From Sphingomonas bacterium (GTDB lineage: Bacteria > Pseudomonadota > Alphaproteobacteria > Sphingomonadales > Sphingomonadaceae), in NCBI RefSeq assembly GCF_903643065.1, contig NZ_CAHJWX010000014.1:1-15988 (forward strand): 15,988 nucleotides of DNA, written 5' to 3'. The translations under genes and the position numbers were made by a program. Numbering within the stretch: position 1 is the stretch's first letter; each line of letters begins with the position of its first letter. Below the pieces are notes generated by a model. The model ran no database searches, had not been told where the DNA came from, and worked only from the letters and a program-made list of their open reading frames with translations. Of this stretch, positions 232-15,988 are shown piece by piece.

Positions 232-1014
232 TTAACGTCCCTGGAAGTCGGGCTCGCGCTTCTGCCGGAACGCCGCGACGCCCTCCGCGAAGTCCTCGGT
301 ACGCCCTGACTGTTTCTGGAGAGTGCGCTCGCGGGCGAGTGCCTCGACGAACGGCTGATCGGTGCCAGCCCAGGCGGCGGCGCGAATGTGGCCGAGCGAA
401 CGTGGTCCGCGCGCTAGCTGGACGGCGAGCGCAAGCGCCACCGCGTCGACGTCGTCATCGGGAACGACGCGGTTGATCAGGCCCCAGTCGAGCGCGGTGG
501 CGGCGCGCAGCCTCTCGCCGAGCAGCATCATTTCCATTGCCCGTACCCGGCCGATGGCGCGAGTCAGCAGATAGCTCGATCCGCCGTCTGGAGACAGCCC
601 GACGTGACAGAATGCCTGGTAGAAATAGGCGCTCTCGCCCGCGACGATCAGGTCGGCCGCCAGCGCCAGCCCGCAGCCGACGCCGGCCGCGGCCCCGCGC
701 ACCGCGCTCAGCACCGGAATGGCGGATGCACGGAGATCGAGCAGCAGCGGATTGAACACCGCCTCCAGCCCCGAGCCCGCATCGCGCTCCGGATCATCCA
801 TCGAGAAGCTGCCGCCCGACAGGTTCGCGCCCGAACAGAAGGCTCGGCCGTGACTGCCGATCAGCAACGCTCGTGCCTCGCCTTGGGCACGGGCGACGGC
901 CTCGCGCAATTCCTCGCCCATGGCGTCCGACATGGCGTTGAGCGTTGCCGGATCGTTCAGTCGAGCGATCGCGACGCCATTTTCCAGCGTATAGTCGACC
1001 AGCCCGTCGTTCAT
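232..1014 (-). CDS. Enoyl-CoA hydratase/isomerase (crotonase) family protein, PaaG-like active site
   Basis: A 260-residue crotonase-fold protein acting on acyl-CoA thioesters in the cytoplasm. I chose the ATG at 1014 because it overlaps the stop of the upstream MaoC-like gene as ATGA (4-base overlap), implying translational coupling; an in-frame ATG at 1035 lies inside the upstream gene. Visible: the first oxyanion loop GRAFCSGANL (residues 56-65) and the second GVGCGLALAAD (111-121). The two glutamates that catalyse hydration in rat crotonase (Glu144, Glu164) align with Gly115 and Phe135. Asp143 in the SPDGG loop is retained; this aspartate is used by isomerase-type members such as PaaG. 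A delta-isomerase or other enolate chemistry is therefore more likely than classical hydration. The exact substrate is unknown. Confidence 0.9.
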   Translation of the reverse strand: MNDGLVDYTLENGVAIARLNDPATLNAMSDAMGEELREAVARAQGEARALLIGSHGRAFCSGANLSGGSFSMDDPERDAGSGLEAVFNPLLLDLRASAIPVLSAVRGAAAGVGCGLALAADLIVAGESAYFYQAFCHVGLSPDGGSSYLLTRAIGRVRAMEMMLLGERLRAATALDWGLINRVVPDDDVDAVALALAVQLARGPRSLGHIRAAAWAGTDQPFVEALARERTLQKQSGRTEDFAEGVAAFRQKREPDFQGR

Positions 1015-2285
1015 TTTCCGCGACCGAGCTCCCAATGGCGCGCCATCATCGCTACGGCTCGCGCCGCGACTTCCGGCGGTACTGCTGGATATAGCGCCGG
1101 CCGGCCGGCGGACGGCAGCGCGATCGTTGCGGTCGCCTTCACCGTTTCCTCGTCACGCTGGTTGGTGAAGCGCACGGCGACGTCGACCAACAATTGGCCG
1201 CTTTCCTCGCGCTTGTTCGTCACCTCGCCAGTGATGGTTTGCACGTCGCCCATATAGTTGAACTTGCGGATCTCATCATGAACGTGGAGCACGACACCGT
1301 CGTCGCCGGCCCAGTCGGTCAGGTAATGATAAAGATAGTTCTCGCGCATTACGCCGTAATCATAGGCCATCGGATTACCGATCGCCTGCGCCCAGACCGG
1401 ATCCCAGTGGAGCCGCTGCGCGACGTCCGGCACGCCGTATTCGTTTTTGATGTAAAATGGCGCGATGCGTTTGCGGTTCTGGTAGGCGAGCCGCCCCACC
1501 GATGGCGCATAGGGCGTAAAACCATAGCCGGCGGCGTGGAAGCATATCACATCCGTGACGGTCAGCGGCCCCTTCGCCATTGTTCCCAGGCTGTCTCCAA
1601 CCGCAACGTCCGCGTAATCGCGCGGTGTCGCACCGCGGACCTGCTCCGCCTCGTAGATCGCGTCGACCTTGGCGATGTCGTCGTCGGTATACGTCGCCGG
1701 CTCGATCGCGGCGTATTTACCCTTCTTCTTGGCCGTGCCTCGCTCGGTAAGCACGGTCAGCACGCGATATATAGCGACAACCTCCGATCGCTGGTTGACC
1801 TTGACGTGACGCAGCACATTGATGACCGATCGGCCGGCGAACTCGGACTGCTTGACATCGCACGACTCCCATCCCTCGAAGCTGTAAAGGGTGTCGCCGG
1901 GGCGGACCGGGCCATACCAATCCCACTTGGACCCTGAGACGAAGACGTGGATGCCCCGGAACAGCGATTTCTTAAGCGCGCGGAGGTGGTCGGGAGTCGG
2001 GTCGCCACGCATCGGCGCATTGATGATCCCCGCCATCATGCCCGGCGCGACGATCCCGCCCCAGCGGGTGCCGCGCGCATAATTCGGATCGCAGTGCAGC
2101 AGGTTGTCGTTGCCAACGCCGTGCGCGAAGTTGCGGATCGTGTCCTCGGTCGCGGTCTGCACGTATTCGCGGGTCCGCGACGCTTGATCATGGCCGATCA
2201 ACCGCTTCTGGCGGTCGATGTCCTCATCGGTGATGCGGTAATCGATGGCCTTCTGCCACTCGTCGCTTTCGAGGATGCTAGCCAT
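1011..2285 (-). CDS. MaoC/FAS1-like double-hotdog dehydratase
   Basis: About 424 residues, the length of a tandem-hotdog acyl-CoA dehydratase of the MaoC / N-terminal MaoC-like (FAS1-type dehydratase) families. It would hydrate or dehydrate a 2-enoyl-CoA intermediate. The N-terminal half carries the hydratase-2-like signature GNDNLLHCDPNYA (residues 58-70) followed by a WGGIVAPG stretch, with His64 as the likely catalytic histidine. The usual Asp of the G-D-x-N-P-x-H motif aligns with Asn59, with Asp60 next to it. The C-terminal half begins around residue 220 and contains a second hotdog lacking that motif. The start at 2285 has GGAGA seven bases upstream. An in-frame ATG at 2303, overlapping the synthetase stop as TGATG, is the alternative and would add six residues. 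The gene lies between the synthetase and a crotonase. Confidence 0.88.
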   Translation of the reverse strand: MASILESDEWQKAIDYRITDEDIDRQKRLIGHDQASRTREYVQTATEDTIRNFAHGVGNDNLLHCDPNYARGTRWGGIVAPGMMAGIINAPMRGDPTPDHLRALKKSLFRGIHVFVSGSKWDWYGPVRPGDTLYSFEGWESCDVKQSEFAGRSVINVLRHVKVNQRSEVVAIYRVLTVLTERGTAKKKGKYAAIEPATYTDDDIAKVDAIYEAEQVRGATPRDYADVAVGDSLGTMAKGPLTVTDVICFHAAGYGFTPYAPSVGRLAYQNRKRIAPFYIKNEYGVPDVAQRLHWDPVWAQAIGNPMAYDYGVMRENYLYHYLTDWAGDDGVVLHVHDEIRKFNYMGDVQTITGEVTNKREESGQLLVDVAVRFTNQRDEETVKATATIALPSAGRPALYPAVPPEVAARAVAMMARHWELGRGK

Positions 2286-2302
2286 CGTCAGGTCTCCACT
2301 CA

Positions 2303-3820
2303 TCAGGCTGCGTCGAGCCCGGCGACAAACAATTTACGAACCTCGGTCAGGGCGGGCTTCATCGATTCGGTCCGCGGCACTTCGTCGACGACCAGGATCT
2401 TCGAAGGAACTTGGTAGGGCAGCAGGTGTGCACGTGCGAAGTCCGCGAAGTCCTCCTCGGACGGAGACGCTACTCCTGCCTTCAGCATGACCGCCGTGAC
2501 CGGAACTGCGCCAAGCCGGCGGTCCGCGATTCCTACTGTCACGGCCTCACGAACGGCGGGATGGCTTTCCAGCGCCTTGTTGACATCGTCGGGGTGCACC
2601 TTGAAGCCGCCTCGATTGATCGCGAGGTCGGCGCGGCCGCGGATGAACAGAAAGCCGTCGGCATCGATCACGGCGCGGTCCGTGGTGCGTAGCCATGCTC
2701 CACCATTGCCGAACTGTTCCGAGCGCATCTCGAGCACGCCTTCGATACCGGCTGACACTTCTTCGCCATTCCCAGGGTCGATGACGCGGCCGATCACACC
2801 GGGCTGGAAGCGCCCGACGCTTTCGGTCTTTGATGCATGGAAGGCAGCGAAGTCCTTCATCGTCCAGCCTGCCACCGCGCCAGAGAACTCGGTCGCACCA
2901 TAGTTGGATAGGACCGGGATCCTGTAGCGGGTCCAGAACTCGGCGACGATCGCAGGATCGAGGGGCGCCGCACCGGTCCGAATCGCGCTAAGGCTAGCCA
3001 GATCTTCGCGCGGGATATCCGCGTCTAGGATCATGCGCAGCCCCGCCGGGACCGTGCCCGCCACCTTGGGCCGATGGCGGACTACCGCGTCGCGCCAGCC
3101 GGCGACGGTGAACCTCTCCAACAGGCACGCCTTGCGGCCGCCGGCGATGCAGGTCAGCGCACCCCACAGGCCACCGATATGCGACATCGGTCCGCTGAGA
3201 ATCGTAGTGCCGGGCCGCAGGCGAGCGGTATCGCTCGCCCGTCGACCCTTTTCGTATGACAACGCCGCTGCAAAGCTCCGTTCAAATGCATCGCGCTTTA
3301 GAGATACGCGCTTCGGGGCGCCGGTGGTGCCGCTCGTCAGCATCTCGACGATCACGCCGGGTTCGGTCAGTCGCATGCCCGCCGGGGGCGAAGCGGAGGG
3401 GGCCAGGAGAGCGGCTCCATCCAGAATACCAGGCAGCTCGATTAATGCCGATCCAGAAGCGCGGATCGCGTCCCGCACAGAGGGACGCGCAAGGTCGGCG
3501 CTTTCACCGATCACAACCGGGAGCGCCAAGGCTAACAGGTCGGTCGCGAGCCGCTCGTCAGGAAGGAGCGGGTTGATCGACACCATGCAGGCGTCGCCAG
3601 CCACGACCGCGAGGACGGCCGCGAATGCCGAAGGTCTGCTCCGCATCAGTATGCCGACTCGCGCGTCGCGTCCCAGCTTCATTTCAGCCAGCGCCGCGCG
3701 GACTTCGCCAATCGTGCCGGCAAGACGCGCCCAGCTATACCATTTCCCATCGAACTCGATGGCGTCGGCCGCGGGATCAATCGTCGGGACATCGTGTAGC
3801 AGGACGGACAGTTCCGACAT
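2303..3820 (-). CDS. AMP-dependent acyl-CoA synthetase (class I adenylate-forming)
   Basis: A 505-residue ANL-superfamily enzyme that activates a carboxylic acid with ATP and CoA through an acyl-adenylate. All core motifs are intact: the P-loop TSGTTGAPK (residues 162-170), SNYGATEFSG (305-314), the ribose-binding TTD (379-381), the hinge FIRGRAD (392-398), INRGGFKV (401-408) and the A10 lysine Lys488 in PRTESMKPA. Length and arrangement fit FadD3-like ligases of ring-containing acids as well as general medium/long-chain ligases, so the substrate is open. The ATG at 3820 has GGAG six bases upstream. It is the first gene of the left operon; the 62-bp gap before it carries a copy of the shared motif (3832-3846). 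Its stop touches the start region of the dehydratase gene. Confidence 0.93.
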   Translation of the reverse strand: MSELSVLLHDVPTIDPAADAIEFDGKWYSWARLAGTIGEVRAALAEMKLGRDARVGILMRSRPSAFAAVLAVVAGDACMVSINPLLPDERLATDLLALALPVVIGESADLARPSVRDAIRASGSALIELPGILDGAALLAPSASPPAGMRLTEPGVIVEMLTSGTTGAPKRVSLKRDAFERSFAAALSYEKGRRASDTARLRPGTTILSGPMSHIGGLWGALTCIAGGRKACLLERFTVAGWRDAVVRHRPKVAGTVPAGLRMILDADIPREDLASLSAIRTGAAPLDPAIVAEFWTRYRIPVLSNYGATEFSGAVAGWTMKDFAAFHASKTESVGRFQPGVIGRVIDPGNGEEVSAGIEGVLEMRSEQFGNGGAWLRTTDRAVIDADGFLFIRGRADLAINRGGFKVHPDDVNKALESHPAVREAVTVGIADRRLGAVPVTAVMLKAGVASPSEEDFADFARAHLLPYQVPSKILVVDEVPRTESMKPALTEVRKLFVAGLDAA

Positions 3821-3831
3821 GCAGGCTCCAG

Positions 3832-3846
3832 ACTTGTATAACTAGG
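3832..3846 (+). promoter_or_regulatory. Shared motif copy A, upstream of acyl-CoA synthetase operon
   Basis: ACTTGTATAACTAGG, which agrees at 11 of 15 positions with ACATMGSTAACTAGG, the consensus of four copies in this window. It is the weakest copy. It lies in the 62-bp gap between the 402-residue acyl-CoA dehydrogenase gene (ending at 3883) and the synthetase start at 3820, only about 11 bases before the start codon. An operator at that place would overlap the transcription start or the ribosome-binding region. The nearest -35 candidates are poor (TTGCAC at 3870-3875 on the minus strand). Function as a binding site is inference. Confidence 0.4.
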
Positions 3847-3882
3847 TTCTCTATATGAATTAGCGATCCGTGCAAGCCGATC

Positions 3883-5091
3883 TTACAGCTGATCGAACGG
3901 CACATCGCGATCGGCCCTGATGTCTCCCGGCATGCCGAGCATCCGCTCGGCAAGCTGATTGCGCAGAACCTCGTCCGCTCCCCCGGCGATACGCAACGCG
4001 GCCGACCAGATATAATCGTCCTGGAGCTTCCGTGTCGCGAGGTCGCTTGGTTCGGCGGCTAGGCCGGCGGGGCCCCGCAGCTCCAGCGAGAGGCCTGCGG
4101 TGATCTGGAGCCGCCGCGTGTAAGCGAGCTTCACGATCGCACCCGCCGCACCTGGGTTCTCACCAAGCGAGACCATCGCGCGCAGACGGCTCTGATAATG
4201 CTTCTCGGCTTGCTCCTCGGCATAAGCGGAGGCCAACGCGAGGCGGACGGCGGCGCTGTCGAGTGCGCTTCCCGCGCCGCGCGGCGTCGCGGCGGCATAG
4301 CGGATCAGGCCCTCAATGCCCTCGTCACCGCTCTCGCCGCTCTGGTTGATCCGCTCGCCAGTCAGCGTGGTCATCGCACACGCCCAACCCTCGCCGACCG
4401 CGCCGACCCGATCGCGATCCGGAATGCGCACGTCGGTCAGAAACGTCTCGTTGAAATCGGACAGACCTGACATCTGACGGATCGGACGGATGTCGATGCC
4501 AGGCGTCTTCATGTCGACGACGAAGAAGGTCAGCCCCTTGTGCTTGGGCAGCGCCGGATCGGTGCGGGCCACGAGAATGCCCCAGTCCGCATGATGCGCC
4601 CAGCTCGACCACACTTTCTGCCCGTTGACGATCCACGCGTCGCCGTCGCGCACCGCACGGGTGCGGAGCGCCGCGAGGTCCGATCCGGCCGCCGGTTCCG
4701 AGAAGAGCTGGCACCAGGTGAGTTCTCCGCAGAGCGTCGGCCCAACGAACCGCTCGATCTGTTCCGGACTGCCATGTTTTTCGATAACGGGCAGCGCCAT
4801 CGCCAGGCCGATGCCGACGTAGGGGCCTTTTGGCAGGCGGTAACGCGCCTCCTCCTCCCCGAACACTATCGCTTCCAGCATCGTGCCACCGCGACCGCCG
4901 ATCGCGGCCGGGCTCGCAATGCCGGCATAGCCACTGCGTGCGAGTTCGGCCTGCCACGCCCTGCCGCGCACGACCACTTCAGCATCGTCAAGGCGGTCGG
5001 CGGCGGGAAGTTCATGGAGCGGCGCATGCTCGGCGAGCCACTGGCGCGCCTTTGTACGGAAGTCGGCGTCGGCCGATCGCTCTTCTTCCAT
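3883..5091 (-). CDS. Acyl-CoA dehydrogenase family protein (second of a pair)
   Basis: A 402-residue FAD-dependent acyl-CoA dehydrogenase that introduces an alpha,beta double bond into an acyl-CoA and passes electrons to ETF. Visible: the family signature CQLFSEPAAGSDLA (residues 127-140), a NGQKVWSSWAH strand typical of the flavin-contact region (156-166), and the C-terminal IAGGADEVLRNQLAERMLG (368-386). The start is the ATG at 5091, which overlaps the stop of the upstream dehydrogenase as TAATG. The open frame continues upstream to 5235, but that part overlaps the upstream gene and has no family similarity. Overall the protein resembles the FadE29-type subunit of heterotetrameric dehydrogenases. 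The neighbouring 375-residue protein looks like the partner. The pairing is inference. Confidence 0.92.
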   Translation of the reverse strand: MEEERSADADFRTKARQWLAEHAPLHELPAADRLDDAEVVVRGRAWQAELARSGYAGIASPAAIGGRGGTMLEAIVFGEEEARYRLPKGPYVGIGLAMALPVIEKHGSPEQIERFVGPTLCGELTWCQLFSEPAAGSDLAALRTRAVRDGDAWIVNGQKVWSSWAHHADWGILVARTDPALPKHKGLTFFVVDMKTPGIDIRPIRQMSGLSDFNETFLTDVRIPDRDRVGAVGEGWACAMTTLTGERINQSGESGDEGIEGLIRYAAATPRGAGSALDSAAVRLALASAYAEEQAEKHYQSRLRAMVSLGENPGAAGAIVKLAYTRRLQITAGLSLELRGPAGLAAEPSDLATRKLQDDYIWSAALRIAGGADEVLRNQLAERMLGMPGDIRADRDVPFDQL

Positions 5092-6218
5092 TACGCGGTC
5101 TCCCGCCGTGGAACGGGTTGCGCGCCATTCGAAGCGAGATGGGCTATCAGGCGGTCGGCCCAATGTTCCCGCCCAGCCAAGCCAAGCGCGAGCGTTCGTT
5201 CGCGCCGATAGTAGAAGTGGCAGTTCGCCTCCCACGTGTATCCGATGCCACCATGGACCTGGAGATTCTCGCGCGCGGCACGTTCGAAGGCGTCGGCCGC
5301 GGTCAGCCGCGCACCGGCCGCAGCGACCGGCAGCGCGCCCGGATCATGCGACGCGGTCCATGCGGCGAAATGCGCGCTCGATCGTGCCAGCTCGACCGCC
5401 ACCAGAATGTCTGCCAGCTTGTGCTTGATCGCCTGATACCCAGCGAGAGGGCGGCCGAAGATGCGTCGCTCAAGCGCGTAATCGCGCGCCATATAGAGGC
5501 ATGCCTCCGCGCCGCCGACCGCCTCGAACGCGGCCTGCACAGCGGCCCCGTCGAAAAGCTGGTCGATTATGTCGCCACCAGCCTCGAGCGGTTCCGCCGC
5601 CGCGCCGTCAAACGACAATGTGTAATGCGCCCGGAGCTGGTCGAAGCTTTCCAGTCTCGTCCTGCTGACGCCTGGCCGGTCCAGTTCCACCAGCGCGAGC
5701 GTAGGCGTGCTTGCGGTTCGCGCCAGGACGACTGCGAGTTGCGCTATACCGCCGTCCGCGACTGGCGTCTTTGTCCCGGACAGGGCTCCTCCGGCGAGCG
5801 TGCTGCGGATCGCCTCCGCTGAAAAGCCGGCAGGTCCTTCGGCATAGGCGAAGGTGGCGATCACGTCGCCCGAGGCAAGCCTGGGGAGCCAGCGCGCGTG
5901 CTGCTCCTCGCTTCCACCGAGGCGGATCGCTTCAGCGGCGAGCACGATCGACGAGAAGAATGGCAGCGCGGCATTGGCGCTGCCGAGCGCCTCGCTGATG
6001 ACGCCGAGATCAAGCGCGGCGAGACCGAGGCCGCCATGCGCCTCGGGAATGGCCGCACCCAGAAAACCCAAGTTCCCGAATTCTCGCCACAACGGCTCAT
6101 CCCACTCGGCACCTTGCTCGATCAATCGTCGCAGGCGATTGGGCGCGGAGCATTCGGCCAGCAAGGCGCGCGCCTGTTCGCGCAGCATGACCTGCTCCTC
6201 CGATATGTAGAAATTCAT
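5091..6218 (-). CDS. Acyl-CoA dehydrogenase family protein (first of a pair)
   Basis: A 375-residue acyl-CoA dehydrogenase starting at the ATG at 6218 (MNFYISEEQVML), with GAGG five bases upstream. Visible: GFLGAAIPEAHGGLGL near residues 51-66, the FAD-contact helix ERRIFGRPLAGYQAIKHKLAD in the second half, and near the C-terminus VHGGIGYTWEANCHFYYRR. The GYTWE glutamate followed by a tyrosine/arginine-rich helix is typical of FadE28-like subunits. The frame stays open far beyond the start, to 7529, but that stretch is antisense to the thiolase-like gene and is not coding. The gene overlaps the next dehydrogenase by one base. It is divergent from the thiolase-like gene at 6300 across an 81-bp intergenic region holding shared motif copy B. 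Confidence 0.92.
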   Translation of the reverse strand: MNFYISEEQVMLREQARALLAECSAPNRLRRLIEQGAEWDEPLWREFGNLGFLGAAIPEAHGGLGLAALDLGVISEALGSANAALPFFSSIVLAAEAIRLGGSEEQHARWLPRLASGDVIATFAYAEGPAGFSAEAIRSTLAGGALSGTKTPVADGGIAQLAVVLARTASTPTLALVELDRPGVSRTRLESFDQLRAHYTLSFDGAAAEPLEAGGDIIDQLFDGAAVQAAFEAVGGAEACLYMARDYALERRIFGRPLAGYQAIKHKLADILVAVELARSSAHFAAWTASHDPGALPVAAAGARLTAADAFERAARENLQVHGGIGYTWEANCHFYYRRERTLALGLAGREHWADRLIAHLASNGAQPVPRRETA

Positions 6219-6243
6219 GCTAGCCTCGCAGACGGGATATGTG

Positions 6244-6258
6244 ACATCGGTAACTAGG
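6244..6258 (+). promoter_or_regulatory. Shared motif copy B, divergent dehydrogenase/thiolase-like promoter region
   Basis: ACATCGGTAACTAGG in the 81-bp gap between the divergent genes starting at 6218 (minus) and 6300 (plus). It is identical to copy E (13797-13811) at 13 of 15 positions. One base downstream is TATACA (6260-6265), a possible -10 for the plus-strand gene that would leave a leader of roughly 28 bases. The -35 at a 17-base spacing is poor (ATATGT), which would fit a regulated or activator-dependent promoter. One site could serve both directions. The binding role is inference. Confidence 0.5.
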
Positions 6259-6299
6259 ATATACATCTTCGCGAGGCAATCCGCTTCAGAGGGAACAAC

Positions 6300-7469
6300 A
6301 TGGCATTGGGCGCTGCTGTGACCGGTATCGGCATGTCGAAGGTGGGACGCAATCTTCATCGCGCCGCGATGGATCACCTGCTCGATGCCGCGATCGAGGC
6401 GATCGCGGACGCTGGGCTCACGCGCGACGACATCGACGGCATCTCGACCTATCCCGGGCGGTCCAGCGTGGCACCAGGCATGTCGCCGCTCGGGACGGGC
6501 GAGGTACGCAACGCGCTGGGTCTCAATACCCGATGGCATTCGGCGACGCCCGAAGGCCCGGCGCAGATGTCGGCGATCATGGTGGCCGCGATGGCGGTGG
6601 CGACCGGCCAGGCGCGCCATGTGCTGTGCTTTCGCGCACTCACCGAATCCTCGTCGCAGACCGCCGCGCAGCGTGCCAGCGTGCCGACCGGTGGCGGCGG
6701 ACGGATCGGCGGATGGCTGGGGTATCTGCTGCCGATGGGCGCGATCTCCGCGACCAATTGGATGGCGTGGGTGGCGACGCGCTATATGCACGAATACGGC
6801 CTCACGCGTGGACAGCTCGGCGCGCTCGCCGTCGGCCAGCGCACCTTTGCGCAGGCCAACCCGCGCGCCTTGTTCCACGGCAAGCCGCTCACGCTCGAGG
6901 AATATATGGCCGCGCGGATGATCTCGACGCCGCTCGGCCTGTTCGATTGCGACATCCCGATCGATGGCGCCTGCGTCATCATCGTGTCGGCCTCCGATGC
7001 CGCGCGCCATTGCGCCAAGCCGCCGCTCCGGATCGAGGCGATGGGTGCGGCGATGCGCGGCAAGGAGAGCTGGGATCAGCAGCCCGACCTGACACGGATG
7101 GCGGCGCATGACGCTGGTGCCGACCTGTGGTCGCGCACCGCGCTGACACCGGATGATGTCGACGTACTGGCGCTGTACGACGGCTTCAGCATCCAGATTC
7201 CGTTGTGGATCGAGGCGCTCGGGTTCTGCAAGCGGGGAGAGGCTCCCGGCTTCATCGCGGATGGCCACCCGCTGCCCGGCGGTCGCTTCCCGGTCAACAC
7301 CGGCGGCGGTCAGTTGTCTGCCGGACGACTGCACGGGTTCGGGCTGCTGCACGAGGCGTGCATGCAATTGTGGGGTGAAGGCGGCGAGCGTCAGGTGCCG
7401 GACGCAAGGGTCGCCGCCTGCGGCATGGGCGGCGGGCCGCTTGCCGGCGCGATGCTGTTGGTGCGATAA
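6300..7469 (+). CDS. Thiolase-like (lipid-transfer/SCP2-type) protein without the N-terminal active cysteine
   Basis: A 389-residue thiolase-superfamily protein. The N-terminal GAAVTGIGMSKVG and the C-terminal NTGGGQLSAGRLHGFGLLHEA (residues 333-353) and ACGMGGGP (373-380) are typical of SCP2-type thiolases. The position of the nucleophilic cysteine carries SATPEGPAQ (81-89), with no cysteine. His345 and Cys374 are retained, and LYDGF (292-296) supplies a tyrosine. Members of this group, such as the Ltp2 aldolase of steroid degradation, carry out retro-aldol cleavage rather than thiolysis and usually work with a DUF35 partner. A DUF35 gene lies at 14639-15046 but not adjacent. The start at 6300 has GAGGG upstream. 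The stop overlaps the transporter start as TAATG. Confidence 0.88.
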   Translation: MALGAAVTGIGMSKVGRNLHRAAMDHLLDAAIEAIADAGLTRDDIDGISTYPGRSSVAPGMSPLGTGEVRNALGLNTRWHSATPEGPAQMSAIMVAAMAVATGQARHVLCFRALTESSSQTAAQRASVPTGGGGRIGGWLGYLLPMGAISATNWMAWVATRYMHEYGLTRGQLGALAVGQRTFAQANPRALFHGKPLTLEEYMAARMISTPLGLFDCDIPIDGACVIIVSASDAARHCAKPPLRIEAMGAAMRGKESWDQQPDLTRMAAHDAGADLWSRTALTPDDVDVLALYDGFSIQIPLWIEALGFCKRGEAPGFIADGHPLPGGRFPVNTGGGQLSAGRLHGFGLLHEACMQLWGEGGERQVPDARVAACGMGGGPLAGAMLLVR

Positions 7470-8893
7470 TGACTGCCGAGCGCTCGCCGGCGGCGTCGAT
7501 CCTGTTCGCGTTGTGGCTGGCGGAAGCAACTGGCGCGTTCGAGACCGCGATGATCTATGCCGCGTACAAGGCGTTGATCGTCACGTTCCACGACCCAGTC
7601 AAGGTTGGCTGGCTCGTCACCGCCTTCCTGCTGGTCAGTGCCGGCGGCGCGGCGGTGGTCGGGCGATCAGGCGACCTGTACGGGCGACGGCGGGTCCTGC
7701 TGTGGCTGCTTGGGGCGGGTGCCTTTGGCGCGGCGGTCAGTGCCTCGGCGACGAGCTTTGCTGCGCTCCTTGTCGGGCGCTCGATTGAGGGGTTGAGCGC
7801 GGCGATCCTGCCGCTGGTGATCGGTCTCGTGCGTGAGAATCTACCGCGCGAGCGTGTCGCGCTGGGCATCGGCCTAATGATCTCCGGCGCATCGGCCGGC
7901 ACTGCGGCTGGGCTGGTGATCGGCGGCCTCCTCGTCGATCATTTCTCGTGGCATGCTGTGTTCCTCGCAAGCACGTCGTTTGCGCTACTGTCCTTCGGGC
8001 TGGTGCTGGCATGGGTTCCCCGGTCGCACGTCGCTACCGGGCACGCGCGGCTCGACTGGGTCGGCGGCGTGCTGTTCGTGCCGGCGATCGCGGGCTTGCT
8101 GCTCTATATCAGCGACGGCCGCGTCTGGGGCTGGGGTGGCCCGTGGATGACCGTCTTGCTGATCGCTTCCGCGGCGCTGTTTGCGCTGTGGATCGCGCGA
8201 AGTCTGCGGACGCCAGATCCGTTGATCGACATTCGGCTCTTCGCCGACCGACGGGTGCTGCTCGCGAATGCAATCGGCGCGCTGGTTGCCACGGGCGCGT
8301 TGCAGATCACGCTCGTCTTTTCGGTGTTGCTTCAGGCGCCGCGCTGGACTGGCATAGGTCTGGGGACGAGCGCGACCCTGGCGGGGCTGGCCAAGCTGCC
8401 GTCGAACCTCGGCTCGCTGTTCGCCGGGCCGCTCGGCGGATATTTGACCGAGCGCCGGGGCGCACGGCTGACGATGACTGGCGGCGGCCTTCTCGCGACG
8501 TCCGGGTGGCTGCTCGCGATGTGGCAGCATGGCTCGGTCGCGATGCTCGTCGCGGTGCTGTGCGTCATCTCGTTCGGTACCACGATCCTGTTCGCGGTCG
8601 GTCCGACGCTGCTGGTCGCGGCGGTGCCGTCGGCACGGACCAGCGAGGCGGCGGCGATGATGGGGGTGGTCCGCCAGCTGTTCATCGCGGTCGGCGCGCA
8701 ACTCGTCGCCGTGCTGCTCGCAACAGACACGGTCATCGGGCCGGACGGCGCGCGCTATCCGACCAGTGATGCCTTCATGCTGACGATGGGGGTGGTTCCC
8801 GGGCTATGCGGGCTGGCGACGCTCGTCGCGCTGGCGCTACCCGAGGCGCTTCAGGTCGGACCGGCGCCGGCGGTTTCTCCCGCCGGCGCCTGA
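7469..8893 (+). CDS. MFS transporter, DHA2-like
   Basis: A 474-residue polytopic inner-membrane protein of the major facilitator superfamily. Hydrophobic segments run through the whole length, beginning at about residue 9. Motif A appears in the loop after the second segment as GDLYGRRRVLL (residues 68-78), and a glycine-rich motif C-like stretch (GLMISGASAGTAAGLVIGG) lies near 135-153. Length and pattern suggest a 14-helix DHA2-type carrier. These are usually annotated as drug exporters, but in a catabolic operon this one could import the growth substrate or export an intermediate. The ATG at 7469 overlaps the stop of the thiolase-like gene by one base, so the two are probably co-translated. 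The last codons form a strong hairpin (8863-8890), and the stop is only two bases from the end of the convergent amidohydrolase gene. Confidence 0.92.
   Translation: MTAERSPAASILFALWLAEATGAFETAMIYAAYKALIVTFHDPVKVGWLVTAFLLVSAGGAAVVGRSGDLYGRRRVLLWLLGAGAFGAAVSASATSFAALLVGRSIEGLSAAILPLVIGLVRENLPRERVALGIGLMISGASAGTAAGLVIGGLLVDHFSWHAVFLASTSFALLSFGLVLAWVPRSHVATGHARLDWVGGVLFVPAIAGLLLYISDGRVWGWGGPWMTVLLIASAALFALWIARSLRTPDPLIDIRLFADRRVLLANAIGALVATGALQITLVFSVLLQAPRWTGIGLGTSATLAGLAKLPSNLGSLFAGPLGGYLTERRGARLTMTGGGLLATSGWLLAMWQHGSVAMLVAVLCVISFGTTILFAVGPTLLVAAVPSARTSEAAAMMGVVRQLFIAVGAQLVAVLLATDTVIGPDGARYPTSDAFMLTMGVVPGLCGLATLVALALPEALQVGPAPAVSPAGA
8863..8890. terminator. GC-rich hairpin at convergent gene junction, possible bidirectional terminator
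   Basis: A perfect 11-bp inverted repeat (GGCGCCGGCGG and its complement) with the loop TTTCTC. It occupies the last codons of the transporter gene just before its TGA at 8891-8893. The convergent amidohydrolase gene ends at 8896. No T-run follows on either strand, so this is not a classical intrinsic terminator. Its position suggests a role in transcript end formation or stability for both converging operons. Confidence 0.45.
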
Positions 8894-8895
8894 AG

Positions 8896-10239
8896 TCACT
8901 CAGCGGCCTCCAGCGCATCCGCGCTCAACTGCCCGTCGGCATCGGTCACTTCGGAGAACATCTTGAGGATGTCGCCCGATGTCACCGGCCGGCGCTCCTC
9001 GCCAGGCGCAAGCGGGGCTGGGCCGCCGAACGATACCGGTGCGGTATCGATGTGCATCGCCAAGTTGCGCAGCGCACCTGCCGTGCAGTTCTCGCGGCCA
9101 CCCATCATCCCGAATGCATCGAACTGGTAAAGGCCAAGCGCGTTCAGATGTGTCACCTTGTCGATTACCGGATCGCTCAGCACGGATACCGATTTAAGAA
9201 GCAGATCTGCCGAATCGGGCCAGACGCTGTCAGAATGTGGATAGTCGCACTCATAGGACACGTTGTCCTCACCGATCGCATCGATGTTCTTGAGACCGAA
9301 AACATCGTCGATAAAGCACGTCATGAAATGCTCGCGGAACACTTCGCTAGGCCGCTTTTTACCGAAGTCCGAGTAGGTCCACGCGCGGTGATGTTCATAG
9401 GTGAAGTCCGCGCGCTCCAGAAAATACGGAATCCAGCCAATACCGCCCTCCGACAGCGCGATCTTCAGCGGATAGCGCTGAATCGCCTTCAGCCACAGCC
9501 AGTCGGCCGCTGAATTTACGATCGAGATCGGCATGGTGACGATCCAGGCGTCGATCGGCGAGTCCATGGACGCATGCGGGGCGGCCGCGCCCGAGCCGAT
9601 ATGGATGTTGATGACGACGTCGTTATCGGCGCACGCCTTCCACAGCGGCTCCCAATGATCGCTATGGATGCTCGGCTGGCCGCGCAGCGACGGATTGTCA
9701 CTGAACGATATGGCGTGGCAGCCCTTTGCGGCAACGCGCTCGATCTCCGCGACAGTCGCAGCGACGTCCCAATAGGGAACGATCGCATTGGGAATATTGC
9801 GGCCAGGGTAGGAGCCGCACCACTCGTCGATATGCCAATCATTATAAGCGCGCAGAAGTGTCAGCGCGTTGTTCTTATCCTCGAACTTGTGAAATAAGGA
9901 CCCGTCGAAGGTGACGACGCTCGGGAAGTTGAGCGAGGCCAGGATGCCGTTGGCGTTCATGTCCTCGATGCGCGCATGAATGTCCCAGGCGCCTTTGCGC
10001 ATCTGATCGAACGAGATCGGCTCGCAGCCATATTCCTCGCGCATGCGGCCCACTACCGCGTTTAGCCCGATGGTGCCGGCGCGACGCCCTTCGAACAGCC
10101 AGAAATCGGCGCCCTTTTCGTCCTTGCGAATCTCGGGCTTGATCGCCTTGTGCTGCACGGACAGATGCTGGTCGAACATAGTCGGCGGTTCGCAGATATG
10201 ATCGTCCACACTGGCGATGATGAGATCTTCAGCCTTCAT
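8896..10239 (-). CDS. Amidohydrolase family 2 (TIM-barrel metal-dependent hydrolase/decarboxylase)
   Basis: A 447-residue protein with the pattern of the amidohydrolase-2 family (ACMSD-like; hydrolases and decarboxylases). Likely metal or catalytic residues: the N-terminal VDDHICEPP (residues 11-19, His14), NIHIGSG (211-217, His213) and ECDYPHSDSVWP (330-341, with Asp332, His335 and Asp337). The first strand has a D-x-H-x-x-E-P form rather than the H-x-H of classical amidohydrolases. This is common among decarboxylase-like members and in homologues found in sphingomonad and actinobacterial degradation clusters. The reaction here could be C-C or ring hydrolysis, or decarboxylation. The ATG at 10239 has AGGAG upstream. 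The gene follows the SDR gene after an 86-bp gap, the only one of the longer gaps without the shared motif. Confidence 0.88.
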   Translation of the reverse strand: MKAEDLIIASVDDHICEPPTMFDQHLSVQHKAIKPEIRKDEKGADFWLFEGRRAGTIGLNAVVGRMREEYGCEPISFDQMRKGAWDIHARIEDMNANGILASLNFPSVVTFDGSLFHKFEDKNNALTLLRAYNDWHIDEWCGSYPGRNIPNAIVPYWDVAATVAEIERVAAKGCHAISFSDNPSLRGQPSIHSDHWEPLWKACADNDVVINIHIGSGAAAPHASMDSPIDAWIVTMPISIVNSAADWLWLKAIQRYPLKIALSEGGIGWIPYFLERADFTYEHHRAWTYSDFGKKRPSEVFREHFMTCFIDDVFGLKNIDAIGEDNVSYECDYPHSDSVWPDSADLLLKSVSVLSDPVIDKVTHLNALGLYQFDAFGMMGGRENCTAGALRNLAMHIDTAPVSFGGPAPLAPGEERRPVTSGDILKMFSEVTDADGQLSADALEAAE

Positions 10240-10325
10240 CGTGCATCTCCTCTTGGCGCGTACCTACACCCTATCTCCACGTTCCAACAAGACCAATCGT
10301 AATACCAGTAGGACTGATCGATCGA
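10240..10325. other. Intergenic gap, SDR to amidohydrolase
   Basis: An 86-bp spacer on the minus-strand operon path. It contains the amidohydrolase ribosome-binding site (AGGAG next to the start) and the left part of a 16-bp perfect palindrome (10314-10329). No convincing -35/-10 pair and no close copy of the shared motif were found by eye. A weak internal promoter or a processed leader is possible. Confidence 0.5.
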
Positions 10326-10329
10326 TCAG
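10314..10329. repeat. Perfect 16-bp palindrome over the SDR stop codon
   Basis: CTGATCGATCGATCAG is its own reverse complement. It covers the TGA stop of the SDR gene (10326-10328). It contains three overlapping GATC sites. As RNA it would make a very short hairpin with almost no loop, so it is a poor terminator candidate; as DNA it could be a protein-binding site. It may also be chance. Confidence 0.5.
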
Positions 10330-11108
10330 CGCGGTGCCATGCGGATTGCTCCGTCGAGGCGGATGGCTTGGCCGTTGAAGTAGCCGTTGCGCACGGTTTC
10401 GAGCACGAGGCTGGCGAATTCCTCCGGATGTCCCAGCCGTTTAGGAAAGGGCACCGAAGCGGCCAGTCCTTCGAGAACCTTCTCCGGGACGCCCAGCATC
10501 GGCGGGGTCGCCATGATGCCGGGCAGGATGGTGTTGATGCGGATCCCCTCGCTAGACAGGTCGCGTGCGATGGTCAGCGTCATGCCGACGATCCCGGCCT
10601 TCGATGCGGAATAGGCGACCTGGCCGATCTGCCCGTCTTGCGCGGCGACCGAGGCGGTGTTGGCGATGACGCCGCGCTCGCCGCCCTCGAGCGGATCGAG
10701 CGTCATCATCCCCGCCGCTGCAATGGTGATGCAGCGGAAGGTGCCAATTAGGTTGAGACCGACGGTGAAAGCGAAATCGTCCATGCTGTGGCGCTGAATG
10801 TCGCCGCTGTCCCGCTTGCGTCCAACGGTCTTGCCGCCACGCGCCCCACCGGCGCAATTGACCAAGATGCGTTCCTGGCCATGTTTGGCACGGGCATGCT
10901 CGAAGCCGGCAAGCGTCGCTGCCTCATCGGTGACATCGACGCGCGCAAACGCGCCGCCGAGTTCGGCGGCGACGGCCTCACCCTTAGCGCTGTCGAGATC
11001 GAAGATCGTCACCCGCGCGCCCGCCGCCGCCAGCGCCCCGGCCGTGGCATGGCCCAGCCCGGAAGCACCTCCGGTGACGATCGCGGCGGTCTTCGAGTCA
11101 ATCTTCAT
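10326..11108 (-). CDS. SDR-family 3-hydroxyacyl-CoA dehydrogenase (HSD10-like)
   Basis: A 260-residue short-chain dehydrogenase. The Rossmann motif TGGASGLG is at residues 12-19, an acidic residue after the second strand (FDLD, Asp37) indicates NAD preference, NCAG is at 84-87, and the catalytic triad is Ser153, Tyr166 and Lys170 in YSASK. The GQIGQVAYSASK and GIVGMTL segments resemble type-2 17beta-hydroxysteroid / 3-hydroxyacyl-CoA dehydrogenases, which oxidise short-chain, branched or steroid-derived hydroxyacyl-CoA. In this setting it most likely converts a 3-hydroxyacyl-CoA to the 3-oxo form. The ATG at 11108 overlaps the stop of the upstream SDR as ATGA, implying coupled translation. 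Its own stop lies inside a 16-bp palindrome. Confidence 0.93.
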   Translation of the reverse strand: MKIDSKTAAIVTGGASGLGHATAGALAAAGARVTIFDLDSAKGEAVAAELGGAFARVDVTDEAATLAGFEHARAKHGQERILVNCAGGARGGKTVGRKRDSGDIQRHSMDDFAFTVGLNLIGTFRCITIAAAGMMTLDPLEGGERGVIANTASVAAQDGQIGQVAYSASKAGIVGMTLTIARDLSSEGIRINTILPGIMATPPMLGVPEKVLEGLAASVPFPKRLGHPEEFASLVLETVRNGYFNGQAIRLDGAIRMAPR

Positions 11109-11896
11109 GCTGCTTCCTCGATGACCGTGCGCGAAACGGCCGCGGGCATGGGCAGCGCGCCGCGTGCCTCGATCAGGTCGATGTTTACGTCCGGTGGCAG
11201 CGCGAGCACCGCCAGTAATGTGTTGGCCATCGATCGCGGGTCAGCCGCCGTGCCGCTGAAGGCGGCGTGACCCGATCGCTGAATCGCCGCGAGGAAGCGC
11301 TCGGCCCGCTCGGAGGTCCAGCCGAGATGGCCGCTAGTGCCGGCCACCGCCCCGGATCGCAAGATGGTTACGCGGATCCGATCATCGCGCAAACCCGCCG
11401 CCAGCGTCTCGGCGCCCGCCTTGGATGCCGCGTACACTGTCAGAAAAGGGAAGGGCATCCGCACCGACTCGCTCGAGACGATGACGATCTGTCCCTCGCA
11501 GCGCCGGAAATGCGGGATGGAGGCACGTATGCAGCGCATCGGGCCGAGCAAGTTGACCGCAACATGCGCCTCGATCTCTTCGTCCCTCGCTTCCTCAAGG
11601 GTAAACGGCTGGAAGATGGCGGCGTTGTCGACGAGGATATCGAGTCGCCCAAAACGCTCGACTACCTCGGCGATCGCGGCCTCGACCGAGCCGGACGAGC
11701 CAACATCGCACGGCACGACGAGTACGCGGTCGCCATGCTCGCCGGCGACTTCGTCGAGATCGCGCGACGCCCGTGCCAAGCACCCAACCTGGGCGCCGGC
11801 CAGGATCGGCGCGGCGACGATATGACGGCCGAGCCCACGCGAACCGCCGGTGACGATCGCCACCTTGCCATCGAGGATGCCCTTCGTCCGCACCAC
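11105..11896 (-). CDS. SDR-family oxidoreductase
   Basis: A 263-residue classical SDR with TGGSRGLG (residues 16-23), Ser142, Tyr155 and Lys159 (YAASK). The second motif reads VDNAAIF instead of the usual NNAG, so Asp90 replaces one of the structural asparagines. It would reduce or oxidise a hydroxyl/keto group on a pathway intermediate using NAD(P). The start is taken as GTG at 11896, two bases after the stop of the upstream flavoprotein gene; a second GTG at 11893 is equally possible, and no strong ribosome-binding site is visible, which fits translation by coupling. Its end overlaps the second SDR by four bases. Substrate and direction are unknown. Confidence 0.88.
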   Translation of the reverse strand: MVRTKGILDGKVAIVTGGSRGLGRHIVAAPILAGAQVGCLARASRDLDEVAGEHGDRVLVVPCDVGSSGSVEAAIAEVVERFGRLDILVDNAAIFQPFTLEEARDEEIEAHVAVNLLGPMRCIRASIPHFRRCEGQIVIVSSESVRMPFPFLTVYAASKAGAETLAAGLRDDRIRVTILRSGAVAGTSGHLGWTSERAERFLAAIQRSGHAAFSGTAADPRSMANTLLAVLALPPDVNIDLIEARGALPMPAAVSRTVIEEAA

Positions 11897-11898
11897 AA

Positions 11899-12974
<1,076 letters not shown>

Positions 12975-12984
12975 GAGGATAAGG

Positions 12985-13770
12985 TCAGTTGCCTTGGGCA
13001 TCACGAGCAGCGCGACGGATCGCCGCCGCTGCCGCGGTCGATAGGCCCATGTTGAGGCATTCCTGATCGAGGGCGTTCGCGAAGCTTCCATCCTCGGCCA
13101 TATTGAAGTTCGCCTTCATGTAGCGCCAGGCCATGCGCGGACCGTCGGCGAGCCTGTGCGCGGCGGCCAAGGTCGCCTCCCGCAGGTCGGCGTCAGCAAA
13201 CAGCTTCGTGTAGAGGCCGCGTGCATGCGCGTCGGCAGCCGACAGCTTCTCTCCCAGGAAAAACAGTTCACGGGCGGTCGCGCTGCCTAAGATCCGCGTC
13301 CAGAACCACGTGGATCCGAAATCCCCGGAGGCGCCGATGCGATCGAACGCGGTGACGAAGGTCGCCATCTCGCCAGCGAAGCGCAGATCGCAGGCGCCGG
13401 CGATGCCAATCCCGGCGCCTGCCACCGGCCCGTTGACCATCGCGATGGTCGGCTTGGGCATATCGTGCAACAGCCGCGACGCCTCGACGAAGCCGCGCAG
13501 TTCGTCAAAGCCTTGTTCAGTACGGCTGCCGCGTTCCGCGTCGACAACCATCGGCGCGAGCTCGCCTTTGAGGTCGCCGCCCGAGCAGAAGCCGCGCCCG
13601 GCGCCGGTCACTACGACGCATCCGGCCGCCGGATCACGCGCAGCGTCGGCCACCGCATCAACCAGCGCCGCCATCATCGAAGGCACCAGCGCGTTCAGCC
13701 GGTCTGGACGGTTCAGCGTGATGATCCGCACACCGCCTTCCTGCTCGACCAAGATCTCCGTCTCGCTCAT
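12985..13770 (-). CDS. Enoyl-CoA hydratase/isomerase (crotonase) family protein
   Basis: A 261-residue crotonase-fold protein. The oxyanion loops are GRGFCSGGDL (residues 58-67) and GAGIGIAGACD (118-128). The classical hydratase glutamates align with Gly122 and Phe142, while Asp150 stands in a SGDFGS loop, again the isomerase-type arrangement seen in the crotonase at 232-1014. Classical hydration is therefore doubtful; isomerisation or another enolate-stabilised reaction is possible. The ATG at 13770 has a strong AGGAGG six bases upstream; in-frame ATGs at 13776 and 13800 are poorer because the first abuts the AGGAGG and the second precedes it. It is divergent from the crotonase at 13837 across a 66-bp gap with motif copy E. 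A 69-bp gap with its own promoter separates it from the next gene. Confidence 0.92.
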   Translation of the reverse strand: MSETEILVEQEGGVRIITLNRPDRLNALVPSMMAALVDAVADAARDPAAGCVVVTGAGRGFCSGGDLKGELAPMVVDAERGSRTEQGFDELRGFVEASRLLHDMPKPTIAMVNGPVAGAGIGIAGACDLRFAGEMATFVTAFDRIGASGDFGSTWFWTRILGSATARELFFLGEKLSAADAHARGLYTKLFADADLREATLAAAHRLADGPRMAWRYMKANFNMAEDGSFANALDQECLNMGLSTAAAAAIRRAARDAQGN

Positions 13771-13796
13771 CCCCATCCTCCTTGCCACTCCGGCGC

Positions 13797-13811
13797 ACAT
13801 CGCTAACTACG
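13797..13811 (+). promoter_or_regulatory. Shared motif copy E, between two divergent crotonase genes
   Basis: ACATCGCTAACTACG, differing from copy B only at positions 7 and 14. With flanks it reads CACATCG, CTAA, CTACGTG (13796-13813), a semi-palindrome whose half-sites agree at five of seven positions. It sits near the middle of the 66-bp gap between start codons at 13770 and 13837 and could control both. No convincing -10 box is visible here by eye. Binding is inferred from recurrence only. Confidence 0.5.
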
Positions 13812-13836
13812 TGGCTTTCGATTGGGAGAGCAAGGC

Positions 13837-14628
13837 GTGCAGTGGCAAACAGTTGTCGTCGAGCAAACCGACCATGTGGCGACCGTCACGATCAACCGGC
13901 CCAGCGCGATGAACAGCTTCGACAAGACGATGATCGCGGAGTTCGCGACGCTCTGGCGCGGCTTCGCGGAGGACGACACCGTGCATGCGATAGTCCTTCG
14001 CGCCGCCCCTGGTCGTGCTTTCTCAACAGGAGTGGACGTCAAGGCCCTGGCGGAGCCGGACGGCGCCATCCTGCACGACAATGTATGGACTGCCGAGGAC
14101 CCGGGTGAGGCCCTCGGACCGAAGGCCAACCGCTGCTGGAAACCCGTGGTCTGCGCAGTGCATGGCATGGCAGCGGGTGGCGCGTTCTACTGGCTGAACG
14201 AGGCTGATATCCTGATCTGCTCAGAGGAGGCGAGCTTCTTCGACCCGCATGTGACCTATGGCATGACGGCGGCGCTCGAGCCTATCGGCGCGACATATCG
14301 AATGCCGCTGGGCGACGTGCTGCGGATGGCGCTGCTTGGGAATGACGAGCGCATCGCGGCGGCGACCGCGTTGCGCATCGGTCTCGTATCGGAGGTGTTG
14401 CCGCTCGACGCATTGTGGAACCGTGCGGACGAACTCGCACGGCTGATCGCGGCCAAGCCGCCCGCCGCGATCCAGGGGACGGTGCGCGCGATCTGGGAGT
14501 CGCTCGACCTGACACGCTCGACGGCGCTCAAACAGGGATTTCGTTACTGCCAGGTCGGTAACCCGGTCGGCGAGGCGCAGCTCAATCCTGCGACGCTCAG
14601 TGGCGGCCGGCGCTACACGACGCGCTGA
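13837..14628 (+). CDS. Enoyl-CoA hydratase/isomerase (crotonase) family protein, divergent active site
   Basis: A 263-residue crotonase-fold protein. I chose the GTG at 13837 because GGGAGAG lies six bases upstream; a TTG at 13822 would precede that site. The first oxyanion loop is GRAFSTGVDVKAL (residues 59-71), and the second lies around HGMAAGGAFYWLNEAD (109-124). The hydratase glutamates align with Tyr118 and His138, and Glu148 occurs in the following AALEP loop where isomerases carry an acid. This differs from the other crotonases in the window. The reaction cannot be deduced; hydrolase or isomerase chemistry is possible. It stands alone on the plus strand, convergent with the DUF35 gene, with only ten bases between the two stops. 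Confidence 0.9.
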   Translation: MQWQTVVVEQTDHVATVTINRPSAMNSFDKTMIAEFATLWRGFAEDDTVHAIVLRAAPGRAFSTGVDVKALAEPDGAILHDNVWTAEDPGEALGPKANRCWKPVVCAVHGMAAGGAFYWLNEADILICSEEASFFDPHVTYGMTAALEPIGATYRMPLGDVLRMALLGNDERIAAATALRIGLVSEVLPLDALWNRADELARLIAAKPPAAIQGTVRAIWESLDLTRSTALKQGFRYCQVGNPVGEAQLNPATLSGGRRYTTR

Positions 14629-15046: not shown

Positions 15047-15988
15047 AGCGCCTCGATGATCGTCACGTTGGCCAGGCCGCCCCCCTCGCACATAGTCTGC
15101 AATCCATAGCGCCGTCCCCGCGCGCGCAGCGCATGAACCAGCGTCGCCATCAGCTTGGTGCCGCTCGCGCCGAGCGGATGGCCGAGCGCGATCGCGCCAC
15201 CGTTCACGTTGAGCCGCGCATGGTCGGCGCCGACATGCCGCAACCAGGCGAGCGGGATCGACGCGAACGCCTCGTTGACCTCGTACAGGTCGATCTCGCC
15301 GATCGACAGCCCGGCCTTCTTCAGCGCCTTCTCGGTCGCGAATAGCGGCTCCTCCAGCATCACCACCGGATCGCCGCCGGTGACGGTCAGGTCAACGATG
15401 CGGGCGAGCGGGGACAATCCATGCGTCTTGAGCGCGCGCTCGGAAACGACCAGCACGGCCGAGGCACCATCGCAGATTTGACTGGCGTTGCCGGCGGTGA
15501 TCACGCCGCCGTCCACCAGCGTTCGCAACGAGCCGATCGACTCAGCGGTCGCATCGAACCTTATGCCCTCGTCGCGCTCGTGCACCGCCGGCGTGCCATC
15601 GGGCAGCGTCACCGCGACCGGCGCGAGTTCCCCGGCGAATGCGCCGCGCGTCGTCGCTTCGGCCGCGCGACGATGGCTTTCGAGCGCATAGGCATCGAGG
15701 TCGTCGCGCGTGAAACCATATTTCTTCGCGATCATCTCCGCGCCTGCAAACTGGCTGAATCCATCTACGCCGAAGCGCTTGAATACCGTGTCGCTGTGCG
15801 ATCGGGCACCCTGCTCGGCAAGTGCCGGCGATCCCATCGGTACGCGGCTCATGCTTTCCACCCCAGCCGCAACCACCACATCCTGGGTGCCCGACATCAC
15901 GGCTTGCGCGGCGAACTGCACGGCCTGTTGCGAGGAACCGCACTGGCGGTCGATCGTGACGGCTGGCACACTCTGCGGCAGGCGCGAG
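15043..15988 (-). CDS. Acetyl-CoA acyltransferase (thiolase), partial, N-terminus outside window
   Basis: The C-terminal 314 codons of a degradative thiolase, which cleaves 3-oxoacyl-CoA with CoA. The frame stays open to the right edge (SRLPQS before VPAVTIDRQC), so the true start lies beyond it; the GTG at 15969 is internal. All catalytic elements are present: the nucleophilic Cys in DRQCGSSQQA (codon near 15940), NEAFA, the His in NGGAIALGHPLGASG and the second Cys in CEGGGLAN. The CEGGG form, instead of CIGGG, occurs in many FadA-type thiolases, including the steroid-degradation enzymes FadA5 and FadA6. It overlaps the DUF35 gene by four bases. It probably performs the thiolytic step for the cluster. 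Confidence 0.93.
   Translation of the reverse strand, partial: SRLPQSVPAVTIDRQCGSSQQAVQFAAQAVMSGTQDVVVAAGVESMSRVPMGSPALAEQGARSHSDTVFKRFGVDGFSQFAGAEMIAKKYGFTRDDLDAYALESHRRAAEATTRGAFAGELAPVAVTLPDGTPAVHERDEGIRFDATAESIGSLRTLVDGGVITAGNASQICDGASAVLVVSERALKTHGLSPLARIVDLTVTGGDPVVMLEEPLFATEKALKKAGLSIGEIDLYEVNEAFASIPLAWLRHVGADHARLNVNGGAIALGHPLGASGTKLMATLVHALRARGRRYGLQTMCEGGGLANVTIIEAL

Follow-up and report, generated by a model that had tools for sequence, protein, structure and literature searches.

A predicted GntR operator at four promoters of a catabolic gene cluster in Sphingomonas

The gene cluster and its four repeated sites

The stretch examined here, called the window below, is the entire contig C14 (NZ_CAHJWX010000014.1, 15,988 nucleotides) of a 2.63-Mb Sphingomonas assembly that is 72% complete; among named relatives, the closest one found is a Sphingomonas metagenome-assembled genome (MAG) from a lichen, whose amidohydrolase is 93% identical. 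The products encoded in the window are an acyl-CoA ligase, a MaoC-like hydratase, two acyl-CoA dehydrogenases, a thiolase-like protein, an MFS transporter, an amidohydrolase, two SDRs, an NMO-type flavoprotein, three crotonases, an OB-fold protein and a thiolase. A short motif recurs at four promoters of this cluster, and we discuss the copies as predicted operators of one GntR regulator of the FadR subfamily, the candidate gene of which is found on another contig (C362) of the same assembly. Start codons were corrected against relatives, and the corrected starts were verified as open frames. Structured RNA and tRNA were searched for in the window and none was found. A reading of the locus as a steroid C/D-ring cluster was set aside, as a Pfam scan of 15 proteins of the window turned up no CoA-transferase family. 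The putative operators and the transcription units next to them are as follows:

3832–3847, plus strand: putative operator 1, ACTTGTATAACTAGGT, 12–27 bp upstream of acs; weak second dyad at 3841–3856
6244–6268, plus strand: putative operator 2, overlapping dyads 6244–6259 and 6253–6268, between the divergent acdB and scp
12944–12968, minus strand: putative operator 3, main dyad 12953–12968, weak dyad 12944–12959, upstream of nmo
13797–13812, plus strand: putative operator 4, ACATCGCTAACTACGT, between the divergent ech2 and ech3
232–3820, minus strand: acs unit (acs 2303–3820, maoC-like 1011–2303, ech1 232 to about 1014), downstream of operator 1
3883–6218, minus strand: acyl-CoA dehydrogenases acdB (5091–6218) and acdA (3883–5091), downstream of operator 2
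6300–8893, plus strand: thiolase-like scp (6300–7469) and MFS transporter (7469–8893), downstream of operator 2
8896–12915, minus strand: flavoprotein nmo (11899–12915), sdr2, sdr1 and amidohydrolase amh (8896–10239), downstream of operator 3
12985–13770, minus strand: crotonase ech2, downstream of operator 4
13837–14628, plus strand: crotonase ech3, downstream of operator 4

The initial annotation had described a directional 15-bp motif in four copies about 10–60 bp from start codons. All four copies were found at their coordinates and on their strands, and the recurrence holds; the form does not, as the unit is 16 bp long and has dyad symmetry. With the corrected starts, each of acs, acdB, scp, nmo, ech2 and ech3 has a site about 12–56 bp upstream. 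The nine columns reported as invariant (ACNTNNNTNACTANG) have exactly four matches in the window, whereas 200 dinucleotide shuffles of it gave a mean of 0.01 and a maximum of 1, so that four were never reached. In the whole assembly the pattern has 7 matches, 4 of them within this contig, as compared to 3 for the pattern read backwards. The stricter pattern ACNTNNNTWACTAGG has 3 matches in the assembly, all in the window, and its backwards control has none; within the assembly, the strict motif is thus confined to this contig.

The genes acs, maoC-like and ech1 are co-oriented and overlap or abut, which suggests a single transcription unit. The gap at 10240–10325 indeed lacks the motif, as had been pointed out, and no site would be expected there because the co-oriented nmo, sdr2, sdr1 and amh probably form one operon. 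The same gap is closed by a perfect palindrome, CTGATCGATCGATCAG (10314–10329), that overlaps the end of sdr1 and has the counterpart ACTGATCGAACAATCAGCG in the sibling Sphingomonas described below.

Form and conservation of the sites

The unit is an imperfect 16-bp palindrome near ACCTAGTTAACTAGGT, centred between columns 8 and 9, in which the GT and AC boxes are separated by 2 nt. The literal sequence ACCTAGTTAACTAGGT was not found in the open-access literature searched. Two matrices describe this dyad. The window-derived matrix was built from nine sites (four from the window, four from the sibling L020 and one from the Novosphingobium MAG locus L080), while the independent palindromic matrix was learned solely from the flanks of GntR orthologues in other genomes, with our own genome and the sibling excluded. 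Among the approximately 16,000 positions of the window, the independent matrix ranks the site at 3832 first, 12953 third, 13797 fourth and 6244 seventh; rank 2 is taken by 6253, the dyad paired with 6244, and rank 5 by 3841, the weak dyad paired with 3832. In simulated sequence, an average of 0.4 positions reach the score of the weakest window site. In the examined loci, duplicates included, the window-derived matrix gave 51 matches at 15 bits versus 19 for its reverse. For the palindromic matrix, the raw count at 14 bits was 108, versus 10 to 68 for 20 column-permuted versions.

A second dyad is often present exactly 9 bp away. It is strong at 6253–6268 and weak at 3841 and 12944, and none was seen at operator 4. 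Of 12 sites in our genome and the sibling, 8 have it at exactly +9. Of 77 sites elsewhere, 40 have a second dyad at distance 9, as compared to 12 at distance 4 and 0–4 at the other distances; the peak at distance 4 probably reflects the AT-rich core overlapping itself. Since the middle box shared by both dyads is nearly symmetric, the outer arm was tested alone. It peaks at the single predicted place (22 of 77 sites, versus 0–6 at the 19 other distances), and the outer arm turned the wrong way reaches a maximum of 6 of the 77. These 77 sites, and the 62 mentioned below, are distinct in that near-identical sequences were merged; the genomes are related, and both dyads of one operator could be counted.

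The sibling Sphingomonas L020 is collinear across the window with a DNA identity of 83%, and all four sites are present there at the same four promoters. Between the two genomes 60 of 64 bases of the core sites are identical, as opposed to 172 of 282 bases in the remaining gap sequence (Fisher p 5e-8). Operator 1 keeps 14 of its 16 bases, operators 2 and 3 are conserved and operator 4 is identical. When the 289 gap segments of 16 bp are ranked by identity, the sites stand at 34, 9, 9 and 1; site 1 is conserved yet not exceptional. In the more distant G066, the orthologues of nmo, acdB and acs have sites upstream, as does the nmo orthologue of G048, the orthologous proteins being 67–77% identical. 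Beyond the sibling the sites appear to have drifted, and a matrix is needed to find them. None of the 62 strong sites in related loci lies inside mapped genes, which make up 41% of those bases. Together with the confinement of the strict motif, the absence from genes and the retention at orthologous promoters support well the earlier proposal of a local regulon under one regulator, as far as this can be judged from sequence.

The copies are AT-rich and near starts, and one of them overlaps a sigma-70-like promoter, as might be expected of a core promoter element or of a chance resemblance. We consider either origin very improbable. Four sites were seen in no shuffle; the strict pattern ACNTNNNTWACTAGG is absent from 182 of 199 genomes (our own included), unlike a core element; and conservation in the sibling, as well as linkage to one regulator clade, speak against chance. 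The core-element explanation was also rejected on the count of sigma-70-like matches, of which 2 were found versus 1.6 expected. Most of the 16 other genomes that match the strict pattern probably do so by chance; among them G048 and G049 alone were followed up. The backwards control of ACNTNNNTWACTAGG is a loose one, as it is commoner than the pattern itself in most relatives, in part owing to the rare CTAG within the pattern.

In the Novosphingobium MAG, what appears from the start of the protein to be a TonB-dependent receptor gene is preceded by a site (L080:11758, ACCTAGTTATATAGGT) that has a partner at 9 bp. Uptake may thus be part of the regulon in relatives.

A candidate regulator of the FadR subfamily

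The earlier statement that the window holds no regulator gene is borne out, none being found among its protein families. The type of regulator had not been settled there; our results favour a GntR/FCD protein encoded on another contig. Contig C362 carries a GntR/FCD gene of the FadR subfamily (261 amino acids), with a GntR winged helix-turn-helix (PF00392, 55.6 bits, cut-off 27) and a C-terminal FCD domain (PF07729, 66.7 bits, cut-off 24.3). The space between this gene and an operon for acyl-CoA dehydrogenases holds a site, ACATGGTTGACTAGGT; a second, weaker one, ACCTATATAATGACGT, is upstream of the GntR gene. In the sibling, the GntR gene is on the contig of the cluster, about 4.4 kb beyond ech1, and it is likewise followed by a site and dehydrogenases. 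All 15 orthologues compared at 51% identity or more (L145 standing in place of L154) share an almost invariant winged helix-turn-helix and wing, with Gly at the position of FadR Arg35.

Computation shows that the sites are there, that they are conserved and that they are linked to the GntR orthologues. A de novo palindromic motif from the flanks of 13 GntR-orthologue loci, with our genome, the sibling and the window sites excluded, is ACTTAGTTAACTAAGT; its log-likelihood is 94.7, versus 31–53 in 12 shuffles and 41.5 in the flanks of 12 non-orthologous GntR loci. All 7 tested genomes with matches of at least 15 bits have a GntR orthologue (51–92% identity). These are 7 of the 10 genomes with such matches among loci longer than 4200 bases, L047, L056 and L068 being left out. 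Of 10 genomes without matches, 8 have no orthologue and 2 have relatives at 37–41%. Close GntR proteins (at least 58% identity) occur among the 199 genomes only in our own, G048, G049 and G066. Of the 15 loci in which the GntR protein is at least 51% identical (our own and that of the sibling among them), 11 have a site of at least 14 bits near the gene with the window-derived matrix, as does 1 of 9 below this identity.

A search with the GntR protein in 396 genomes of the order found matches in 20 genomes, belonging to 6 of 84 genera. When loci were drawn by the protein alone (L178 and L185 dropped as repeats of L165 and L168), 15 of 16 at 51% identity or more have a site of at least 13.6 bits with either matrix, a line drawn after the scores were seen, and 14 of 16 reach 14 bits; below 51% the count is 0 of 2. 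Within 250 bp of the GntR gene, 8 of 16 measured loci reach 13.6 bits (one of these loci at 45% identity). Random pieces (n = 1970) reach 11 bits in 3.1% and 14 bits in 1.1% of cases. All such counts are inflated by the relatedness of the genomes. Overall, we estimate a probability of roughly 0.8 that the four copies are operators of the FadR-subfamily GntR regulator encoded on C362.

There are a number of points that weigh against this assignment. The GntR gene is on a different contig from the window, and its adjacency to the cluster is seen in the sibling alone. The exact nine-column pattern is not enriched across L009–L099 (5 matches versus 10 for the backwards control), and a loose dyad pattern is near noise in our own genome (35 versus 31 for the control per strand), which is why an extension of the regulon by this pattern was dropped. 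The de novo test was not fully blind, because the genomes behind ACTTAGTTAACTAAGT were partly chosen for holding matches, and in L063, L073, L083 and L097 the matched locus itself carries the GntR gene. The same de novo search in short flanks of the later 15 loci alone returned another palindrome, TTGATTGGCCAATCAA (64.6), and 4 of the 15 loci of the first set have no match at 14 bits with the window-derived matrix. Finally, several genomes carry two or more related GntRs, hence there is more than one candidate reader per site in those genomes. Matches in our own genome on C33 and C91 were treated as chance, given their low scores with the independent matrix (7.5 and 1.7 bits, as compared to 14.0 and 5.1 with the window-derived one).

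The presence of several GntRs leads to the question whether the sites are read by another protein, either a second FCD-type GntR paralogue, such as G048, G049 and G066 have, or a DNA-binding protein encoded in the missing part of the assembly, for which 72% completeness leaves room. G048 has three GntRs in or near the cluster, including one of 224 amino acids beside the site L127:5602. A search with this 224-residue protein, however, gives one match each in our genome and the sibling at E 1e-6, namely the C362-type gene, and it is this gene that sites directly adjoin in both; another reader appears unlikely to us.

A regulator of a different family also adjoins the cluster. Contig C209, which overlaps the right end of the window, carries a TetR gene divergent from the SDR-thiolase operon at that edge, and the sibling has its TetR gene in the same place. 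The gap between the TetR gene and the SDR gene holds AGGTCTATTACTAGGT in our genome (17.5 bits) and a weak ACTTACCCCACTAGGT in the sibling (11.5 bits). Nevertheless, a site in this gap is also expected if the GntR regulator controls that divergent promoter, and the motif obtained from the GntR flanks does not involve TetR. The TetR protein is found at E 1e-15 in only 3 of the 20 genomes that have sites and GntR (our own, the sibling and G066); with 17 lacking it, TetR was rejected as the main reader, and we regard this possibility as quite unlikely. The C209 TetR matches no named NCBIfam model above cut-off.

The overlap itself (15755–15988 with L123:1–233 of C209) extends over 233 bp at 98.3% identity, not 100%, which hints at a strain mixture or a second copy in the assembly. 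Beyond the TetR gene, L123 encodes a cytochrome P450 and an aldehyde dehydrogenase (2411–4853), which are at the same place in the sibling.

Proposed mechanism and comparison with known systems

Binding by the C362 regulator, repression, an effector and occupancy by two dimers are what we infer. The GntR protein would bind the 16-bp imperfect palindrome, and the second dyad offset by 9 bp would provide three half-sites in 25 bp. The protein would repress the CoA-ligase, dehydrogenase, thiolase/transporter, flavoprotein/SDR/amidohydrolase and crotonase units, as well as its own gene neighbourhood, and binding of an acid or acyl-CoA of the pathway to its FCD domain would lift the repression. Repression is the simplest mechanism because the sites are so close upstream of the starts. 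The nmo gene has a sigma-70-like promoter, TAGACC-17-TATTAT (12974–12946), and the main dyad of operator 3 lies within its spacer; between 3700 and 13900 the minus strand has no other promoter-like match. This overlap, together with the nearness to starts, lends weak support to a steric block. An organic acid or a CoA ester is a plausible effector because PMC4494728 gives carboxylic acids as effectors of the FadR subfamily.

It is useful to compare these features with those of described FadR-subfamily systems. According to PMC4494728, the operators of this subfamily are AT-rich palindromes with TKGT/ACMA boxes in which GT and AC are 2 or 3 nt apart; UxuR, HypR, PrpR and MdcY are among the regulators with 2-nt spacing, and extra half-boxes are reported 7–12 nt from the palindrome centre, which provides a precedent for the second dyad. 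Like the 2-nt-spaced systems described there, the C362 regulator combines a GntR winged helix-turn-helix with FCD, and its predicted operator is an AT-rich palindrome that has 2 nt between GT and AC and an extra half-box nearby. In contrast to the subfamily consensus, ACTTAGTTAACTAAGT has A or G at the K of TKGT, with one arm degenerate in single window sites, the FadR-Arg35 position is occupied by Gly, and the target genes are different. As Arg at this position is correlated with a G/C pair in PMC4494728, Gly is consistent with operators that take A or G at the matching base, and the pair offers a testable case of protein-DNA co-variation.

The C362 protein has low similarity to named NCBIfam models. 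The nearest by score is that of E. coli NanR (NF003011, 87.9 bits against a cut-off of 260), which is also an FCD GntR with more than one half-site per operator; PMC8012715 describes three GGTATA direct repeats for NanR, as opposed to the overlapping dyads 9 bp apart seen here. Open-access literature on GntR regulation in sphingomonads, Sphingomonadaceae and Novosphingobium, judged from titles and abstract openings, contained none about this regulator.

At first sight, the cluster resembles the KstR2 regulon of steroid-degrading actinobacteria, in which CoA-ligase, dehydrogenase, crotonase, thiolase and flavoprotein genes are under a local regulator. KstR2 is a TetR repressor, whereas the candidate here is GntR/FCD; membership of a KstR2 regulon was rejected since the linked regulator is of this type and the neighbouring TetR has no named NCBIfam match. 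This agrees with the remark in the initial annotation that the motif does not look like that of KstR2.

A candidate regulator and a defined operator are thus proposed for a family of sphingomonad catabolic clusters, and the predicted GntR regulon is very probably present in Sphingomonas and some related genera. The operator can help to locate pathway genes that are scattered over a genome, the dehydrogenase operon on C362 being an example, and thereby to narrow the search for the substrate. We further speculate that an undescribed FadR-subfamily clade, marked by Gly at FadR-Arg35 and the wing SVVRGSRTGA, could serve several sphingomonad genera as a dedicated switch for the breakdown of a bulky substrate by a CoA-dependent route, with two dimers side by side on a 25-bp two-dyad operator (9-bp offset) responding cooperatively to a pathway acyl-CoA; we hold this picture to be possible rather than probable.

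As regards the cluster genes themselves, the amidohydrolase is 78–80% identical to proteins in Pseudomonas/Stutzerimonas loci (L021, L023–L026 and L029), which is higher than in many sphingomonads. This high identity in gammaproteobacteria suggests that the gene has moved by lateral transfer.

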